The notes under the pieces are model-generated. The model ran no database searches, was not told where the DNA came from, and was given only the letters and a program-made list of their open reading frames with translations. Below, piece by piece: positions 2,382 through 13,942 of a stretch of 36,535 bases of DNA. Source of the DNA: an uncultured Gemmiger sp. (GTDB lineage Bacteria > Bacillota > Clostridia > Oscillospirales > Ruminococcaceae); assembly GCA_944386495.1 (NCBI GenBank), contig CALXBE010000020.1:1-36535 (forward strand). Direction: 5' to 3'. Within the stretch, counting starts at the first letter, position 1; every line of letters starts with the position of its first letter. A program made the position numbers and the translations under genes.

Positions 2382-3044
2382 TCAGGTCACCAGCCGGTAG
2401 ACCAGACAGGGCCGGCCGCCGGTGCTGTAGTTCATATCCCCCGTGAGCTGGCCTTCCCGGGCCATGTGTCCCATGTACCGGCGGACAGTTACCACCGAAA
2501 GCCCCGAGGCGGCGGCAACCTCCTCGCAGGTGAAGGGATGGTCCGGGTTTGCCCGCATGCAGGCCAGGATGCGTTCCTGGGTCTGGGGCTGCATCCCTTT
2601 GGGGAGGGAAGCGGAGGAGGATGCATGGAGCAGGTGGTCCAGGGCGCTCTGGTCCAGGGTGCCGGCCCGCACGGCGGTGCGGCGGCGGCAGAAGGCGTCC
2701 AGGGCCTGACAGAACCGTTCATAGGCGAAGGGTTTTACCAGATAATCCACCACTCCCAGCCGGGTCAGGGCCTCCACGGTGGCGGCATCGTTGGCGGCGG
2801 TAATCATAATTACATCCGATTCCACCCCGGCGGCCCGGATGGCCCGCAAAAATTCCAGGCCGTTCATCTGGGGCATATAAAAATCCAGAATAATCAGGTT
2901 GGGGGTGTTCTGCCGCAGCCAGTCCAGGGCACGGCGGGGAAGGCCGAAGCTGTGGCTGACGGTGAACCGGCCGTCCCGTTCCAGGTACCGCCGGTTCAGC
3001 TCGGCAATCATGGGATCATCTTCCACTATCAAAACGGAATACAT
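2382..3044 (-). CDS. Response regulator, CitB/DcuR/DctR type
   Basis: A 220-residue response regulator. The receiver domain (1-~120) shows D9-D10, phospho-acceptor D54 in LIILDFYMPQ, T82 and K104 in YLVKPF. The C-terminal domain (~160-205) is the winged-helix-type HTH of the CitB/DcuR group, HPFTCEEVAAASGLSVVTV and following RRYMGHM, with the characteristic GRPCLVYRL end. These regulators control transport and fermentation of citrate, malate, fumarate or succinate in relatives (family knowledge). It follows its kinase by 21 bases, one operon. No dicarboxylate transporter lies in the window, so the target is unknown; the divergent ATP synthase operon is the nearest candidate by position only. 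Confidence 0.93.
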   Translation of the reverse strand: MYSVLIVEDDPMIAELNRRYLERDGRFTVSHSFGLPRRALDWLRQNTPNLIILDFYMPQMNGLEFLRAIRAAGVESDVIMITAANDAATVEALTRLGVVDYLVKPFAYERFCQALDAFCRRRTAVRAGTLDQSALDHLLHASSSASLPKGMQPQTQERILACMRANPDHPFTCEEVAAASGLSVVTVRRYMGHMAREGQLTGDMNYSTGGRPCLVYRLVT

Positions 3045-3065
3045 GGTTTAGCCTCTTTCTTGGAA

Positions 3066-4682
3066 TCATTCCGCCTGGTCGGCACGGAAGGTTATAATGA
3101 AGGAACTGCCTACTCCGGGGGTGGATTCCACCCGAATCTCCCCTCCGTTGGCATCCACGATCTGCTTGACCAGAAACAGCCCGGTGCCGTGGCCGATGCC
3201 CTTGGTGGTTTTGCCCCGCTCAAAGATGTGTTCCAGCATCTCCTCGGGAATGCCGCAGGCGTTGTCGTCCACGCTGAGGATCAGTCCCTGGTCCCCCTCC
3301 CGCAGGGAAACATCAATTTCGTGGAGGGTGTCGGCAGGGGCTTTCCGGAAGGAATCAAAGGCATTCTCAATGAGATTGCCCAGAATGGTGATAAGGCTGG
3401 AAGGGGAGAGAAAACGGGAATCGGCACTGAGGTTGCTTTCCGGGTCCAGGGTCATCCGCACCCCCAGCTCTGCCGCCCGGCAGCTTTTCCCGATGAGGAG
3501 GGCGGCCACCGAGGGCTCGGCAATGCTCTGGGAGATACGGGCCACCGACAGGGCCCGGGTCTGGGTGATCTGGAGCACATACTCCTCCGCCCGGCGGTAC
3601 TCGCCCAGCTGCAAAAGCCCCAGGATCACATGGAGCTTGTTCATGAATTCGTGGGTGTAGGCCCGCATGGCCTCCACCATGTGCTGCACACCCGTAAGCT
3701 CCCGGGCCAGGTTTGCCACTTCGGTGCGGTTCCGGAAGATGGCCACCACCCCCACGATCTCCCCGTCCCGGAATACCGGCATCCGGTCGGACAGGATCTG
3801 AACCCGGTGGAGGGACCGGAGGCTGATGCTGAACTCAGGCTGCTTGGTCTGAATCACCTGGGCAATGGTGGATTGGGGATAGACCTCCGACAGGGGTCTT
3901 CCCAGGACCAGATTCTTTTCCAGGGAGAGCATTTCGGAGGCTGCCCGGTTGATGTAGATGATGCGGGTATCCTTGTCAATGGCCAGCAGTCCTTCATCCA
4001 GGGCATCCAGCAGTTCCATCCGCCGGAGGAACAGGTCCCGGAAGGCATCCGGCTCGTACCCCAGCAGGTCCCGCTTGATGTGCCGGGCCAGCCGCTGGCT
4101 GAGAAAGGTGCCCAGCCCCAGGGCCACCAGACCTATGGCCAGGTATATCCCCAGGGTGTGCAAAGCGGAGGTGCGGATGGAACGCAGGTACATCCCCGCC
4201 ATCACATACCCTTTGATGGTGCCGTCGGTGCGGCGGACAGCGGCAAAGGCGCAGTAATCCGCGCCGGAAGGAGCCTGGTCCCCGTCCAGTATGGGGTCGC
4301 TGCTCTGGACCAGCCGTTCCATAAGGCCGCTGTCCAGAGGCTCCAGCTGGGAGGGGTCTTCAGTGTTCCCGGTGACATCACAGAAGTACACCGGAGTCCC
4401 GTCCTCCATATATACGGCAAACAGGTCAATGCCGGAAATGCCGTAAACCGTCCGGTCCACATAGGCGATGACTTTCCGGGAATCGGTCTCATCGGTGATG
4501 GTCAGGGTGTGGGACACGGCCTGGACGGCGGTGAGAAGGGTGTCCTGCCGTACCCGGCGGGCGTTCATCAGGTCCAGGGAAAGGCCGGCTCCGGTAGCCA
4601 GCACCATGGTGACCAGGATGCCCAGCACCGACACCCGCAAAATCTGCTCATAGATGGTATGTCCCGTTGTCTTTTTTTCCAT
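3066..4682 (-). CDS. Sensor histidine kinase, CitA/DcuS/DctS type
   Basis: A 538-residue membrane kinase. Membrane segments at ~15-38 and ~172-192 enclose an extracytoplasmic sensor of ~130 residues, the layout of the citrate/C4-dicarboxylate family. A cytoplasmic PAS domain spans ~220-325. The phosphorylated histidine is H344 in the family-specific motif THEFMNKLHVILGLLQLGEY. The ATPase domain has the N box NLIENAFDSF (N440), DDNACGIP (472-479) and GHGTGLFLVKQIV (498-509). It phosphorylates the response regulator encoded 21 bases downstream. The start ATG follows GAAGGGG at good spacing. The ligand cannot be read from sequence; a di- or tricarboxylate is expected from the family. Confidence 0.94.
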   Translation of the reverse strand: MEKKTTGHTIYEQILRVSVLGILVTMVLATGAGLSLDLMNARRVRQDTLLTAVQAVSHTLTITDETDSRKVIAYVDRTVYGISGIDLFAVYMEDGTPVYFCDVTGNTEDPSQLEPLDSGLMERLVQSSDPILDGDQAPSGADYCAFAAVRRTDGTIKGYVMAGMYLRSIRTSALHTLGIYLAIGLVALGLGTFLSQRLARHIKRDLLGYEPDAFRDLFLRRMELLDALDEGLLAIDKDTRIIYINRAASEMLSLEKNLVLGRPLSEVYPQSTIAQVIQTKQPEFSISLRSLHRVQILSDRMPVFRDGEIVGVVAIFRNRTEVANLARELTGVQHMVEAMRAYTHEFMNKLHVILGLLQLGEYRRAEEYVLQITQTRALSVARISQSIAEPSVAALLIGKSCRAAELGVRMTLDPESNLSADSRFLSPSSLITILGNLIENAFDSFRKAPADTLHEIDVSLREGDQGLILSVDDNACGIPEEMLEHIFERGKTTKGIGHGTGLFLVKQIVDANGGEIRVESTPGVGSSFIITFRADQAE

Positions 4683-4881: not shown

Positions 4882-5580
4882 TTGGAAGGTTTCAAAGAAG
4901 CCCTGGTGGATGCCCTGGCCAATAAGGTCGCGTTTACCATCCCGGTTCTGGGTGGCATCCCCATCAGCTCATCTGTGTTGGTGACTTGGATCATTATGGC
5001 GTTCTGGATCATCTTCACCCTGCTGGCTACCCGAAATCTCAAGGTCAGCAATCCCGGCAAGATGCAGATCGTGCTGGAATCCGCCGTGGAATTCCTCAAC
5101 GGATTCGTCAAGGATACCATCGGTCCCCACTGGCGGCCCTTTGCCCCCTATCTGGGAAGCGTGGCCCTCTACATCGGGCTGGCAAACATCATCAGCATTT
5201 TCGGTCTGACACCCCCTACCAAGGATGTGAGCGTGACCGCAGCCCTGGCCCTTATGAGCATGCTGCTGATTTACGGCGCCCAGTTCCGGTACAACGGCCT
5301 GGCCGGAGGGATGAGGCGGTTTGCCCAGCCTATGCCTGTCTTGACCCCCATCAACCTGATGGAGATCGCCATCCGTCCCCTGGCGCTCTGTATGCGACTG
5401 TTCGGCAATGTGTTGGGCGCATTCATCATTATGGAGATCATCAAGTACATTGTGCCCGCTGTGGTCCCTGCCGTCTTCTGCATCTACTTCGACCTGTTCG
5501 ATGGTCTCATCCAGACCATTGTGTTCGTGTTCCTGACCGCCCTGTTTGCAGGTGAGGGAATCAAAGAGGAAGAAGAGTAA
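4882..5580 (+). CDS. atpB: F0F1 ATP synthase subunit a
   Basis: Membrane stator subunit that forms the two proton half-channels beside the c-ring. At 232 residues it is at the short end of the family. Five to six hydrophobic segments are visible, and the essential stator arginine is R172 in PLALCMRLFGNVLGAF, equivalent to E. coli R210. The start codon is TTG, preceded seven bases upstream by AGAGGTG; no ATG fits in frame. It heads the operon atpB-E-F-HA-G-D-C. The acidic end (EGIKEEEE) is notable but not rare. Assignment is secure from motif and context. Confidence 0.96.
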   Translation: MEGFKEALVDALANKVAFTIPVLGGIPISSSVLVTWIIMAFWIIFTLLATRNLKVSNPGKMQIVLESAVEFLNGFVKDTIGPHWRPFAPYLGSVALYIGLANIISIFGLTPPTKDVSVTAALALMSMLLIYGAQFRYNGLAGGMRRFAQPMPVLTPINLMEIAIRPLALCMRLFGNVLGAFIIMEIIKYIVPAVVPAVFCIYFDLFDGLIQTIVFVFLTALFAGEGIKEEEE

Positions 5581-5640: not shown

Positions 5641-5859
5641 ATGTCTATTGGAATCATCGCCGCAGGTATTGCAGTTCTCACCGGCATCGGCGCCGGTATC
5701 GGTATCGGCATTGCCACCGGTCATGCCAGCGATGCCATTGCCCGTCAGCCCGAAGCTTCCGGTAAAATCAACAGCACCCTGCTGCTGGGCTGCGCCATGG
5801 CAGAAGGTACTGCCATCTTCGGCTTCATCACCGCTCTGATCATTATCTTCATGGGTTAA
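5641..5859 (+). CDS. atpE: F0F1 ATP synthase subunit c
   Basis: A 72-residue hairpin that oligomerises into the rotor ring. Helix 1 contains the glycine-rich [10 protein letters not shown], the polar loop is ARQPEAS, and the ion-binding carboxylate is E55 in helix 2. In sodium rings such as that of Ilyobacter a Gln sits in helix 1 and Glu-Ser-Thr in helix 2. Here the aligned positions are I22 and E55-G56-T57, so both sodium ligands are missing and proton coupling is the better prediction (inference by hand alignment). AGGAGG lies at ideal spacing before the ATG. Confidence 0.97.
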
Positions 5860-5876: not shown

Positions 5877-6365
5877 ATGCTGGATTTCCAGCCCTGGACG
5901 ATCTTTTTTACCATCGTCAATCTTTTGGTTTTGTATTTCTTTTTCCGCAAGTTCCTGTTCGGGCGGATCAATACGGTGCTGGAACAGCGTGAACAGCTGA
6001 TCCGCAGCCAGGTGGATGCCGCTCAGGAGAACAACGCCCAGGCCCAGAAAGCCAAGCAGGAATATGAGAGCAAGCTGGCCGGTGCCCGGCAGGAAGCCGC
6101 CGACCTGGTGGCGGATGCCAAGCGCCGTGCCGACCAGGCCTACGCCGACCGTCTGGCCCAGGCGGAGGCGGATGCCAAAAAGACCGCCGCCGAGGCCGAG
6201 GCCCGGATCGCAGCCCAGCACAGCGAGATGCTCCGGGCTGCCCGGGGCGAGGTAGCTCACCTGGCGGTCATGGCTGCCACCCAGGTGGCCGGCAAGCGGC
6301 TGGACACCGATTCCGACCGTGCCCTGGCCGAGGAATTTCTGGCAAAGGTGGGTGAGCAGGAATGA
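5877..6365 (+). CDS. atpF: F0F1 ATP synthase subunit b
   Basis: Peripheral stalk subunit of 162 residues. One N-terminal membrane segment (about residues 7-26, [18 protein letters not shown]) is followed by a long, charged, Ala-rich coiled coil (about 30-150) full of EAEA/KAKQ patterns that dimerises and reaches up to delta. I choose the ATG of MLDFQPW because AAAGGAGG lies eight bases before it; a GTG three codons earlier overlaps that ribosome site. The stop overlaps the next start as ATGA, which couples translation to the delta-alpha fusion gene. Confidence 0.95.
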
Positions 6366-8388
6366 ATGAAGCCACCCAGCGTTACGCAGCAGCCCTCTTC
6401 GGGGCAGCCCGGGGAGAAGGGGAAAGCCTGATTTCCGCCGCCCGGGCCCTTATGGCAGATACCCGGCAGTGGAACCTGCTGGTAAGCGCCGCCACCACCC
6501 CCGCCGAAAAGAAGGAACTGGTGGCAGGGGCTCCCCAGCTGGACGGACAGGATGCCCTGAAAGCCTTTCTGAACCTGCTGCTGGAGGAAGGGCATCTGGA
6601 AGCCCTTCCTGAAATCCTCACCGAGTTTTCCCGCCTGACCCTCAATGCCCAGGGAGGGTTGGAATGTGTTATGACCTGTGCCCGCCAGCCTGACCAGGCC
6701 ACCCAGGATGCAGTCCGGAAAGCGGCCTGCAAACTCCGTGGTGTGGAGAAGGTGGTGCTTCAAATCAAAATCGACCCCAGCCTGCTGGGCGGTTTTGTGC
6801 TGGAGATGGACGGGGTCACCTATGACCGGAGCGTCAAGGGCCGGCTGAACCGTCTGGCCCGGGGGATGGAAGATGCCCCCGCCCAGGATTCCCTGGACCA
6901 GCTGGCCGCCCAGATGAAGGAAGTGCTCTCGGGCAGCGCCGGGGATACCATGGCTTCCGAGACCGGCCGGGTGCTGGAAATCGGAGACGGCATTGCCAAT
7001 GTAAGCGGCCTGCGCCACGCCGTTTACGGGGAGCGGGTAGAGTTTGAGAACGGCACCGCCGGACTTATTCTGGACCTGCGCCGGAAACGGACCGGTGTGG
7101 TGCTGCTGGGCAGCGCCAAGGGCCTGACCGAAGGCAGCCTGGTCCGCCGGACCGGCCGTCCCGCTGATGTGCCGGTGGGGGAAGCCCTTATCGGCCGTAC
7201 CGTGGATGCCCTGGGCCGCCCCATTGACGGCCTGGGCCCCATCAACTGCACCGAGACCCGGCCCATTGAGCATGAGGCTTCCGGAGTGGTCAGCCGTGAA
7301 CCGGTCAACCAGCCCATGCAGACCGGCATCCTGGCCATCGACTCCATGGTCCCCATTGGCCGGGGCCAGCGGGAACTCATCATCGGTGACCGCCAGACCG
7401 GCAAGACTTCCATTGCCATTGATGCCATTCTGAACCAGAAGGGCCAGAACATGATCTGCATCTATGTGGCCATCGGTCAGAAGGTATCCACCGTGGCCCG
7501 GCTCCGGGAGACCCTGAAAAAGCAGGGAGCCATGGAGTACAGCATCATTGTCTCCGCCCCCGCAGGAGAGGGCGCATCCATGCAGTATATCGCCCCCTAC
7601 GCCGGTGCGGCCATGGGCGAATATTTCATGTCCAAGGGCAAGGATGTGCTCATTGTCTACGATGATTTGTCCAAGCATGCCGTGGCTTACCGGACTTTGT
7701 CCCTGCTTCTCCGCCGGTCCCCCGGCCGTGAGGCTTACCCCGGCGATGTGTTCTATCTCCACTCCCGGCTGCTGGAGCGGGCCTGCCGCCTGACCAAGGA
7801 ATACGGCGGCGGTTCCATGACTGCTCTGCCCATTGTGGAGACCCAGGCAGGGGATGTGTCCGCTTACATTCCCACCAATGTCATCTCCATCACCGACGGT
7901 CAGATCTATCTGGAAAGCGGCCTCTTCTTCTCAGGCCAGCGCCCCGCCGTCAATGTGGGTCTGTCCGTCTCCCGTGTAGGCGGCGCCGCCCAGACCCGGG
8001 CCATCAAGAAAACCGCCGGCACCCTCCGGATCGACCTGGCCCGGTACCGGGAACTGGAGGTATTCACCCAGTTCAGCTCCGACCTGGATGCCGAGACCCG
8101 GCAGGCCCTGGACCACGGCAAGCGGATGATGGCGCTGCTCCGCCAGCCCCTCTGCTCCCCCATGTCGGTGGCCCGGCAGGCGGTCATTCTCTACATTGCC
8201 ACCAACGGCCTGCTCTCCGATGTGCCGGTGGAAGAATCCGCCGGTTTTGCCCGGGAGTTTGCCGACCTGCTGGAGCGGGAACAGGCTAGCCTGATGGAGG
8301 AGATCAACCAGACCGGAGCCCTGTCCGGCACCGCTACCGAGCAGATCCGCACCACACTGCAGAGCTACAAAGAGCAGGTGAGCGCCAG

Positions 8389-8401
<13 letters not shown>
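6362..8401 (+). CDS. atpHA: F0F1 ATP synthase delta-alpha fusion
   Basis: One uninterrupted 679-codon frame. Residues 1-~168 are a whole delta/OSCP subunit, starting [13 protein letters not shown] and ending in the conserved [20 protein letters not shown] and RLNRLARG. A linker of about seven residues (MEDAPAQ) leads to alpha: N-terminal helix [14 protein letters not shown] (~176-189), beta-barrel from [16 protein letters not shown]-loop GDRQTGKT (342-349), and arginine finger R538 in [11 protein letters not shown]. Both parts have full family length (~170 and ~510), so this is a clean in-frame join, not a remnant. Normally these are separate genes, one delta per three alpha. In-frame ATGs at 6866, 6914 and 6950 could restart alpha; only 6950 has a weak GGGG site. 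It overlaps atpF by 4 bases and atpG by 13. Confidence 0.93.
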
Positions 8402-10749
<2,348 letters not shown>

Positions 10750-10750
<1 letters not shown>

Positions 10751-11154
10751 TGGAAAAGACATTTCAGCTGGAGATCGTCACCCCGGAACGGCAGTTTTTC
10801 ACCGGCCCGGTGGAAAGCCTGATGCTTCCCGCCCTGGACGGGGAATATGGGGTGCTGCCCGGCCATGAGCCGGTGGTCACCGCCGTGGAACCGGGGGAGG
10901 CCCGGTACAAGGTGGACGGGGTCTGGCATTCCGTCATTGTGACCCAGGGCCTGGCCGAGCTGATGTCGGACTATGCCATCCTGCTGGTGGCCGCCGCCGA
11001 ACGGCCCGAGGACATTGACGCCGCCCGGGCCCAGCGGGCCAAGGAACGGGCCCAGGAACGGCTGCGCCAGCACGGCAGCCAGCGGGAATATCACCGGGGC
11101 AAAGCCGCATTGGCCCGGGCCAATGCCCGCCTTCACGGAAGCAAACACCGCTAA
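10750..11154 (+). CDS. atpC: F0F1 ATP synthase subunit epsilon
   Basis: A 134-residue subunit. Residues 1-~85 are the beta-sandwich (FQLEIVTPERQFFTGPVESL and GEYGVLPGHEPVVTAV are conserved), which binds gamma and the c-ring; ~88-134 are the two-helix inhibitory domain, here unusually Arg-rich (RAQRAKERAQERLR and RGKAALARANARLHG). The helical domain limits ATP hydrolysis in relatives. The start shares one base with the beta stop (TGATG), so translation is coupled. It is the last gene of the operon; the terminator is about 150 bases on. Confidence 0.95.
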
Positions 11155-11543: not shown

Positions 11544-11580
11544 AAGAGCATCTGCGTCCTATCCATGCAGAGGCTCTTTT
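11544..11580 (+). promoter_or_regulatory. Leader hairpin directly before the LRR surface protein
   Basis: AAGAGCATCTGC (11544-11555) pairs with GCAGAGGCTCTT (11567-11578) with one mismatch, followed by TTTTGAGAGAGGGAGG. The hairpin plus T-run sits just before the ribosome site of the next gene, so it could be an attenuator or the terminator of an upstream transcript. The 200 bases between 11337 and 11543 show no gene. Confidence 0.45.
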
Positions 11581-11599
11581 GAGAGAGGGAGGTAACCGG

Positions 11600-13942
11600 A
11601 TGAAAAAGTATACGAAAAAAGTAAGGAAAACATACAAGAAAAAGCTGATGGAGCGGGCCGGCGCATGGGGGTGTGCGTTGGCTCTTTCCATGACACTGTC
11701 AATGGCGGCATTTGCGGAAGAACCGCTGGGAGAGGTGGTTTTGCAGCAAACCCTGATGACAGAGGTCACGGAATCCCGGCAGCCCACGGCGGAAGCCATG
11801 GAAACTGAACAGGGAACGGCGGAAACGGCAGAGCCTGAACAGGTTGTACCGGAAACCGAAGAACCGGAGCAGGAAGCCGCAGAAACGGCAGAGCCTGAGC
11901 AGCCGGCGGCAGGCACCGGGGAACCGGAGCAGGAAGCCGTAGAAACAGCACAGCCTCCGCAGCTCACAGAAGAACTCCCGGAAGAGGGAACGCCCGAGAC
12001 AGCAGTGCAGACCCCGGAAAGTTCTGAACAGGAACTGGCCCTGAATGTGGAAAACTTTCCGGACCCGGCATTTCTGGCAAGTCTGGACCGCTTTGACCTG
12101 GATGGAAACGGCAGCCTTTCCCTGTCGGAACGGGAAGCCGTAACAGAAATCGATGTACGGAGCAAGGGAATCCAGTCCCTGGAGGGGATAGGGGACTTCC
12201 CCAACCTGACCAGGCTCAACTGCATTGGAAATACCCTTACCCAACTGCCCCTGGACCAGATGCCCAAACTGACCTCGCTGCTCTGCAACGAGAATCAGCT
12301 TACACAGCTGGACCTTTCCCAGCTGCCCATGCTGCGGGTGCTCCACTGCCACGATAACCAGCTGACGGAACTGGATGTTTCCCAAAACCCGGAGCTGTAC
12401 GAACTGGCCTGCGGAGACAACCCATTCACTTCCCTGGATGTGACTCATAATCCCCAGCTGGCTTATCTGCTCTATTTGGGCGGTCCTCTGGAGATCCTGA
12501 CCCTGGGAGGAAACCATGCCCTGAAGGAACTTTGGTGCTCCTATGCCCTGGTGTCGGAGCTGGACCTGGCACAGGCTTCCAATCTGGAGATGCTGGGAAT
12601 CGAATACAGCCAGATTCGGTTCCTGGACCTTGAGGCAAACCCCAGGCTGACCCATGTGCTGGCATCAGGCTGCCGCCTTTTGGGGGCAAAACTGCCGGAG
12701 GGAATCTCTGCGGACCTTTCCCATCAGCGTGCAGTTGAAGTGCATGTGGGCGCCCATGAAACCACCTTCGATTTAATGAGGCTGGGCCTGCCCCTGGATA
12801 TGGCCAACATTTCCAATGTGACGGGAGCCCAGCTCCAGGGCAGCGTCCTGACCGGAATCTCCGATGCAGTCATGGTCACCTATGACTATGACGCTGGGGG
12901 AGCCCGGCTGACCGCATCCGTTCTGTTCCATGGGAGCAACGGCTGGGTGGAGCCTCTTTCCCTGGAGGATTGGACCTACGGCGAACCGCCCCACCAACCC
13001 TATGCAGAGGCGGAATACGGAAATGTGGTGTATACATACAGCGATTCCCCCGACGGCACCTTTGGCCCGGAGGTTCCCACCCAGGCGGGGACCTGGTATG
13101 TGAAGGCATCGGTGGCAGAGTCCCCGGACCATGCAGGGCTGACCGATGTTGAAGAATTTCACATCCTGAAAGCCCATCCCACCTTTACCGTACCCACCGG
13201 ACTGACGGCAGTGTACGGAAACACCCTTGCCAGTGTAGACCCCGGCAGCGGCTTTGTGTGGGAAGATCCCGGACAGAAGGTGGGCAGTGTGGGAGAAAAA
13301 ACCTTCCTGGCAAGCTATCTTCCGGAAGACACAGACAACTACCAGGTGGAAAACCATCTTCCCGTGGTGGTGCGGGTCCTGCCCAAACAGGCCCGGGAGG
13401 AATGGGTGCCCCGGCTGACAGGGTCCCAGGACCTTGCATCCCTGCAGGTCCGTGACGGTCAAACCACCCTTCGCCAAGGGCGGGACTATACGGTCACCAC
13501 CTACACGGAGAATGGCTGGGTGACGGTGATGGTGGTGTTCCAGGGCAACTATACCGGACAGATCCGGCGGGGATACCCCCAGGAATCTTCCGGGACTCTG
13601 CTGCCGCCCCCTGCAGCCAATGAAACAAAGGTACCCCCGCCCCAGCAGGAACCCATAGTGGATGCCGTGGTGGAAGACACCCGGCCCCAGGCAACATCCT
13701 CTCCGTCCGCCACACCTGGACCGGATGGAGAATCCCAGAAGGAAGAACCCGCAGAGCCAACCGGACAGGAGGGTCTGCCCCATGAAGACACCGCCGATGC
13801 CCCCTCGGCAGAGAGGAAAGCACGGGATGGGATGATTCTGATTTGGCTTCTGCTCATACTCCTGGTCATTGCCATTTGGCTGTTTGAGGGGTATAAAAAG
13901 GGGGAGGACGAGGAAAAACCGGACAGTGACCTGAACGACTGA
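11600..13942 (+). CDS. Secreted leucine-rich-repeat surface protein with C-terminal membrane anchor
   Basis: About 780 residues. A basic N-terminus and hydrophobic segment ending SMAAFA-EE form a signal peptide. A low-complexity Glu/Pro/Thr region (~45-140) with EPEQ and ETAEPEQ units follows. Then an EF-hand-like DRFDLDGNGSLSLSE leads into bacterial LRRs (~175-370) of the form LTxLxCxxNxLTxLDLSxxPxL. Near ~525-600 is an extracellular fold with PTGLTAVYGNTL and VGSVGEKTFLA, typical of MBG-like repeats. The end has a membrane segment (MILIWLLLILLVIAIWLF) and a short charged tail without LPXTG, so it is anchored by the membrane. I start at MKKYTKK because GGGAGGTAA precedes it. Likely host- or neighbour-facing; binding partner unknown. 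Confidence 0.87.
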   Translation: MKKYTKKVRKTYKKKLMERAGAWGCALALSMTLSMAAFAEEPLGEVVLQQTLMTEVTESRQPTAEAMETEQGTAETAEPEQVVPETEEPEQEAAETAEPEQPAAGTGEPEQEAVETAQPPQLTEELPEEGTPETAVQTPESSEQELALNVENFPDPAFLASLDRFDLDGNGSLSLSEREAVTEIDVRSKGIQSLEGIGDFPNLTRLNCIGNTLTQLPLDQMPKLTSLLCNENQLTQLDLSQLPMLRVLHCHDNQLTELDVSQNPELYELACGDNPFTSLDVTHNPQLAYLLYLGGPLEILTLGGNHALKELWCSYALVSELDLAQASNLEMLGIEYSQIRFLDLEANPRLTHVLASGCRLLGAKLPEGISADLSHQRAVEVHVGAHETTFDLMRLGLPLDMANISNVTGAQLQGSVLTGISDAVMVTYDYDAGGARLTASVLFHGSNGWVEPLSLEDWTYGEPPHQPYAEAEYGNVVYTYSDSPDGTFGPEVPTQAGTWYVKASVAESPDHAGLTDVEEFHILKAHPTFTVPTGLTAVYGNTLASVDPGSGFVWEDPGQKVGSVGEKTFLASYLPEDTDNYQVENHLPVVVRVLPKQAREEWVPRLTGSQDLASLQVRDGQTTLRQGRDYTVTTYTENGWVTVMVVFQGNYTGQIRRGYPQESSGTLLPPPAANETKVPPPQQEPIVDAVVEDTRPQATSSPSATPGPDGESQKEEPAEPTGQEGLPHEDTADAPSAERKARDGMILIWLLLILLVIAIWLFEGYKKGEDEEKPDSDLND

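Follow-up and report, generated by a model that had tools for sequence, protein, structure and literature searches.

The window analysed here is a 36,535-nucleotide stretch of DNA from an uncultured Gemmiger sp. (assembly GCA_944386495.1, contig CALXBE010000020.1, forward strand), and it carries an F-ATPase operon in which the delta and alpha subunits share one open reading frame (ORF). The operon is intact and reads a-c-b-[delta-alpha]-gamma-beta-epsilon, with each subunit scoring above its Pfam cut-off. The fused ORF (6362-8401, forward strand) encodes 679 amino acids (aa) from ATG to TAA with no internal stop codon. The OSCP profile (PF00213) matches residues 6-168 with 101.6 bits (cut-off 22.3) over profile positions 3-171 of 172, a whole-domain score above the cut-off, and the atpA model TIGR00962 matches residues 180-673 with 741.6 bits (cut-off 484.45) over positions 6-501 of 503, its full length. 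These matches and the open frame bear out the proposal of a first-pass annotation, made from the sequence alone, that a complete delta/OSCP runs in frame into a complete alpha; delta is not encoded here as a separate chain. Within the alpha part Pfam places ATP-synt_ab_N at residues 199-265, ATP-synt_ab at 322-537 and ATP-synt_ab_C at 544-668. The key motifs are kept, as had also been proposed: the P-loop GDRQTGKT (residues 342-349) and arginine 538, which we take to be the arginine finger, are invariant in an alignment of 18 whole-delta fusions. The fused start overlaps the stop codon of b as ATGA (6362-6365), and the 3′ end overlaps the start of gamma (8389) by 13 bases. Since b is an ORF of its own and shares only this overlap with delta, the locus does not hold a b-delta fusion of the NF009961 type.

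An AlphaFold2 model of the fused chain is good for delta and poor for much of alpha (mean predicted local distance difference test score, pLDDT, 67.8; predicted template modelling score, pTM, 0.45), and no docking or relative placement was taken from it. The delta N-terminal domain is predicted to form six helices (residues 3-15, 20-32, 34-41, 47-55, 64-76 and 79-96; pLDDT about 75-87). A 20-residue stretch in the delta C-terminal domain shows conservation across 15 fused rows. About seven residues (171-177) make up the linker, which agrees with the original estimate and is modelled as a low-confidence coil. The features of the operon and its immediate neighbours are collected in Table 1.

Table 1. 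Positions in the window of the parts of the fused delta-alpha frame, the other F-ATPase genes and the adjoining two-component pair.
Feature	Position	Strand	Evidence
Delta N-terminal domain, residues 1-97, predicted six-helix bundle	6362..6652	+	Pfam OSCP, AlphaFold2
Delta C-terminal domain, residues 98-170	6653..6871	+	Pfam OSCP to 168
Linker, residues 171-177	6872..6892	+	Low-confidence coil in model; fast-changing yet uninterrupted across 16 Gemmiger copies
Alpha N-terminal helix, residues 178-189	6893..6928	+	Helix in model
Alpha core, residues 199-679 and stop codon	6956..8401	+	Pfam, TIGR00962, alignment
P-loop	7385-7408	+	Within alpha core
F-ATPase subunit a	4882..5580	+	Pfam ATP-synt_A 140.3 bits
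F-ATPase subunit c	5641..5859	+	Pfam ATP-synt_C 62.5 bits
F-ATPase subunit b	5877..6365	+	Pfam ATP-synt_B 93.2 bits
F-ATPase gamma, acidic tail	8389..9306	+	Pfam ATP-synt 320.5 bits
F-ATPase beta	9326..10750	+	TIGR01039 792.7 bits
F-ATPase epsilon with C-terminal helix domain	10750..11154	+	Pfam DE_N 77.3, DE 55.2 bits
Sensor kinase (PAS, SpoOB-type helices, HATPase), divergent from operon	3066..4682	-	Pfam
Response regulator, same pair as sensor kinase	2382..3044	-	Pfam

The same architecture was found in related genomes. Among the best 80 of 374 relatives kept from a contig scan, 19 encode a whole delta that runs in frame into alpha (in L055 the contig ends within alpha), so that the relatives do not all have separate atpH and atpA genes, an outcome considered at the outset. 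Six more of the 80 have just the C-terminal half of delta fused in frame with alpha (short fusions), and the 19 include a named strain, Gemmiger gallinarum DSM 109015 (L046). When a junction profile of 15 rows was run against 396 genomes of the window's family, 279 matched at E 1e-25, separate genes included, and uninterrupted fused frames were present in at least 48 of the 396 (17 whole-delta, 28 C-terminal-only, two in which a b-like segment precedes the delta C-terminal domain and alpha, and one mixed). This count is a lower bound, and several of the loci are identical to those among the best 80 relatives; class labels come from a delta profile built here, except that L230, L232 and L233 were given labels of their own and L229, missed by the profile, was called a short fusion by eye. 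Two whole-delta genomes (G220 and G317) are listed as one contig each. A phylum-wide junction search of 398 genomes at E 1e-46 matched 21 and gave, beyond the window's genome, seven uninterrupted fused frames (G822, G568, G696, G594, G491, G648 and G447) and a fragment (G619). The delta profile found a whole delta in L249, from G822, which belongs to another family of the same class, and a short delta in L251, L253, L254 and L255; G648, G447 and G619 were left out. Across 16 Gemmiger copies the fused frame is open, without the frameshift or missed stop that might have been feared at the junction, and its length (679-681 aa) varies by one or two codons. Judged from these genome comparisons, the fused delta-alpha frame is a real and recurrent arrangement in gut bacteria.

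The fused frame is under purifying selection. Over 15 Gemmiger copies the ratio of nonsynonymous to synonymous substitution rates (dN/dS) is 0.35 for the delta N-terminal domain, 0.29 for the delta C-terminal domain and 0.17 for the alpha core, with 0.72 for the 24 residues before the alpha core; residues 168-182, the linker region, give 0.755 over 16 copies. For some regions of two other fused sets dN/dS could not be computed, as synonymous sites are saturated.

The history of the fusion was examined on a quick alpha-core tree (LG+G4, delta and linker columns excluded) of 156 rows, on which 45 of 153 inner branches are open. Dropping repeat locus copies, 30/31 partial second copies and alpha cores of fewer than 360 residues had left 181 rows, and near copies were then cut to give 156. 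All fusions bar one (L230) lie within one paralogous F-ATPase clade, which has 98 rows with the b-fused pair (support 94) and 96 without it (support 96), the latter made up of 39 separate, 28 whole-delta and 29 short rows. At least eight changes between fused and separate states are needed on this tree. A single clade of fusions was rejected by the approximately unbiased (AU) test, both for the 57 whole-delta and short rows (p-AU 4e-34) and for the 28 whole-delta rows alone (p-AU 8e-8); the groups were named after the tree had been seen, and the tests speak against a single clade but not against a single ancestral fusion that was split later. Repeated fusion is the simpler reading as against one old fusion with splits, and the delta-alpha fusion probably arose on more than one occasion. 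The 14 Gemmiger fusions are monophyletic (support 100) and sit next to four rows with separate genes, from Agathobaculum, Butyricicoccus and Evtepia (support 85). In one of these, L054 (Agathobaculum), delta and alpha share a register and are divided by a stop codon, and in the other three (L056, L058 and L091) they are out of register. A Ruminococcus clade of eight rows (support 98) holds four short fusions (support 97) nested among four whole-delta fusions, with inner forks at 86 and 93. Because of this nesting, the delta N-terminal domain would most simply have been lost after fusion in that clade.

Two further forms of fusion were encountered. In L232:3918-6146 and L233:3618-5822 (G120 and G245, two genera), frames of 750 and 737 codons join a b-like helix, the delta C-terminal domain and alpha. 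At the N-terminus of these frames stands a hydrophobic helix, followed by a coil resembling b (hhalign probability 93.5, E 2e-7); Pfam ATP-synt_B scores 23.9 bits in L233, below its cut-off, and has no match in L232. Both loci also encode a separate b upstream, and their epsilon is short (counted from the start of the match, 88 and 90 residues, versus at least 128 in all but one complete row elsewhere). A third genome, G196, matches the first 220 residues of the b-fused chain at 67% identity in a frame of 224. By genus, a b-fused match was seen in one of three genomes of g106 (none in G105, 97% complete, or in G186) and in both genomes of g120, one of them partial. With such a chain, each alpha would be tethered to the membrane. 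A small-genome genus has a complete, separate delta and, between it and alpha, an additional delta C-terminal domain; of the three genomes seen, G227 alone has this additional domain in frame with alpha (L230:2078-4460), and it is separate in G068 (C6) and G160 (C7).

In F-type enzymes a delta:alpha ratio of 1:3 and a single stalk are taken as general. The first-pass annotation had pointed out that the fusion predicts three deltas per F1 unless free alpha is also made, and the genomes divide on this point. Twenty-two family genomes were examined closely, 17 of which were chosen for a single delta match. No second alpha or delta was found in any of the eight whole-delta (92-100% complete) or the nine short-fusion genomes (89-100% complete) so chosen. 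In some lineages, therefore, the enzyme could be built from fused chains alone, and in the eight whole-delta genomes this would mean three deltas per F1 unless the chain is cut. As for the other five, a single alpha and a single delta were found in G245 (b-fused, 88% complete), G120 adds a free pair to its b-fused chain, and G227, G068 and G160 combine one alpha with two or more delta matches. A set of 34 genomes, whose completeness is mostly not given, was also searched individually for further alpha or delta. Among the 19 of these with a whole-delta fusion (G110 and G396 seem to be the same genome), five show just the fused delta (G406, G407, G409, G410 and G411); among six short-fusion genomes, a separate delta was found in G416, G417 and G418 and none in G412, G413 and G414. 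The prediction of three deltas thus gains from the 17 chosen relatives, and its proviso bears on the window's own genome, which has a free alpha and delta. As a separate observation, the window's genome has, in addition to its two F-ATPases, a further pair of ATP-synt_ab frames (442 and 495 aa) at G000:C4:115865-119284, one of which scores 361 bits with the atpA model.

The annotation had left open whether any delta-alpha fusion had been described, and the principle of such a fusion, in a form without the delta N-terminal domain, is already known from passages of Ueno et al. 2025 (PMC12229609). There, a Bacillus PS3 enzyme was engineered by fusing delta without residues 2-104 to alpha, so that it carries b2 at each alpha; 0, 1, 2 and 3 stalks were present in 15, 51, 26 and 8% of particles, and the H+/ATP ratio was 5.8. 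That work used E. coli DK8, a laboratory strain devoid of F1Fo. The same passages state that the delta N-terminal domain, on the pseudo-threefold axis, limits the enzyme to one stalk, and they name a natural fusion without this domain in Acidaminococcus fermentans together with two further UniProt entries. Chain I of PDB 9jc1, named as delta plus alpha and present in three copies, aligns with window residues 127-655 and appears to belong to this work.

We consider it likely, with a probability of roughly 0.6, that the window encodes the alpha of a second F-ATPase with a whole delta at its N-terminus, that three such chains bring three deltas to each F1, and that the link replaces alpha-delta docking. 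One delta would take the normal place, its N-terminal domain on the axis atop the alpha3beta3 ring and its C-terminal domain holding the b2 stalk. Because only one N-terminal domain fits the axis when there are three chains, the link is proposed to replace docking and the two surplus deltas to idle or to hold extra b2-a stalks. With the covalent link taking over docking, the alpha N-helix and, more slowly, the delta N-terminal domain would be free to drift. In other lineages fusion would have been followed by loss of the delta N-terminal domain, yielding the form that, when engineered, builds up to three stalks. The early remark that the fusion ties together subunits that contact each other is supported. 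In the fused Gemmiger copies, dN of the 24 residues before the ETG motif, which include the alpha N-helix, is 6.7 times that of the alpha core, versus 2.6, 1.4 and 1.3 times in three separate sets, and the EEI-type motif of separate relatives is lost from this helix. A drifted alpha N-helix would be in line with a docking site made spare. The ratio of dN between the delta N- and C-terminal domains is 1.66, 2.89 and 1.38 in fused sets versus 1.25, 1.23 and 0.90 in separate sets, with just one fused interval clearing all separate intervals.

Several observations weigh against this proposal. The axial domain said to limit the enzyme to one stalk (PMC12229609) is kept by the window's chain, and so three times over in such an F1. 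In two other fused sets the ratio for the alpha helix is 3.3 and 1.9, near the range of the separate sets, and the Gemmiger ratio of 1.66 between delta domains (95% interval 1.09-2.70) overlaps the intervals of the separate sets, so that the N-terminal domain is only mildly relaxed. The window's genome (26 contigs, 81% complete) has a second, standard F-ATPase on contig 5, with matches to all eight standard subunits and with delta and alpha as separate frames. A separate delta, and a second alpha too, was found in 14 of the 19 whole-delta genomes of the individual search, the window's included, and G189, of the window's genus (77% complete), shows the standard copy only. Of 16 Gemmiger copies, 14 retain an in-frame ATG at residue 185, within the alpha N-helix, and proteolysis in the linker is possible.

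With a free alpha and delta in the window's genome, mixed rings are possible there, and F1 might consist of one fused chain and two unfused alphas, the latter supplied by the second operon, by an internal start or by cleavage of the linker. Besides the second delta and alpha of the window's genome and of 13 of the 18 other whole-delta genomes, this would suit the linker, a fast-changing coil of low model confidence, and the in-frame ATG codons of the linker region. It is nonetheless doubtful. The 17 relatives chosen for a single delta match have no second alpha, and the paralogous copies in the window's genome are only 60% (alpha) and 34% (delta) identical to the window's, with beta at 69%. 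The retained ATG falls within the alpha helix, 23 codons upstream of the DGI motif of alpha, and is preceded by a ribosome-binding-like word in L049 only, at 3 bases. When the linker region of 30 whole-delta fusions was scanned, none of its in-frame starts was preceded by a conserved ribosome-binding word; the test is weak, since in Gemmiger the true start is also poorly marked, besides being coupled to b. Four-base words of this kind precede some in-frame codons (L048, L049, L057, L088, L189, L190 and L194), at differing places and mostly with poor spacing.

Another reading, to which we give no better odds, is that the window's enzyme itself has several stalks, two or three b2-a units in all, and works when the proton-motive force is low. 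The engineered enzyme of Ueno et al., which builds several stalks (PMC12229609), and the alignment of its presumed chain 9jc1 with the window's would be consistent with it; the axial domain retained in the window argues the other way. Somewhat better placed, though still short of even odds, is the wider suggestion that multi-stalk ATP synthases evolved several times, by fusion, which would first give an F1 with three deltas as in the window, then by discarding of the axial domain, which would let every alpha carry a stalk of its own, and, in two genera, by fusing on of b. It is very improbable that the fused operon is decaying or unused while the second operon, with its full set of standard subunits, does the work: the fused operon's subunits are intact, key residues are kept, the alpha core evolves at the low dN/dS given above, and the fused gene encodes the only alpha found in the 17 chosen genomes. 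An assembly or sequencing error that removed a stop codon, conceivable in a genome of such fragmentation and completeness, is effectively dismissed because the frame recurs in relatives of many species, among them a named strain and two one-contig genomes, and because it stays open under purifying selection over 15-16 Gemmiger copies.

In its build, the window's chain resembles the engineered Bacillus PS3 enzyme, as described in PMC12229609, in that a short linker connects the delta C-terminus with the alpha N-terminus and that the delta C-terminal domain sits on each alpha with no separate delta in the operon. Unlike the window, which keeps both, the engineered form has neither delta residues 2-104 nor the epsilon C-terminal domain. 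The Acidaminococcus fermentans protein is likewise a natural delta-alpha fusion, but the delta N-terminal domain is missing there and present here as six predicted helices; the passage that names it gives no experiment on that protein. The short fusion of Ruminococcus sp. YE71 (L096) is another natural parallel to the engineered enzyme. The mycobacterial and Gordonia b-delta fusion (NF009961; PMC5709465) also joins neighbouring stator subunits, though delta is joined there to b and not to alpha, so that the 1:3 problem does not arise. Relatives from Agathobaculum, Butyricicoccus and Flavonifractor (L054, L071 and L059) belong to the same paralogous F-ATPase clade and have matches to the same two-component pair, but unlike the window they have a stop codon between delta and alpha. 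Neither the whole-delta fusion, its recurrence and spread, the apparent loss of the domain after fusion nor the triple fusion was found in the open-licence PMC literature searched.

Some features of the neighbourhood remain to be described. The two-component pair at 2382-4682 on the reverse strand is a possible regulator of the fused ATPase; matches to it adjoin both fused and separate relatives. The start of b was set at ATG 5877 for the AAGGAGG upstream, while the ORF list begins b at GTG 5868, and beta may start at 9326 or 9353, with GTG 9251 in the ORF list. Gamma ends in a 17-residue acidic, tryptophan-containing tail beyond the usual end (9241-9306); similar tails occur in L039, L041 and L046, and the gamma of the second operon has none. 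Directly downstream of the operon, a large protein with a leucine-rich repeat match is encoded at 11579-13942.

A gene tying delta to every alpha, present in many gut bacteria, suggests that the 1:3 ratio and the single-stalk rule may be breakable in nature. If the proposed arrangement is true, a chain uniting b with the delta C-terminal domain and alpha would oblige each F1 to have three stalks anchored in the membrane and would raise the H+/ATP ratio. The series from separate subunits to fused ones, to fusions without the N-terminal domain and to b-fused chains suggests a stepwise evolution of such a machine, and the fused genes, named strains included, supply enzymes with which to test whether natural ATP synthases use more than one stalk.
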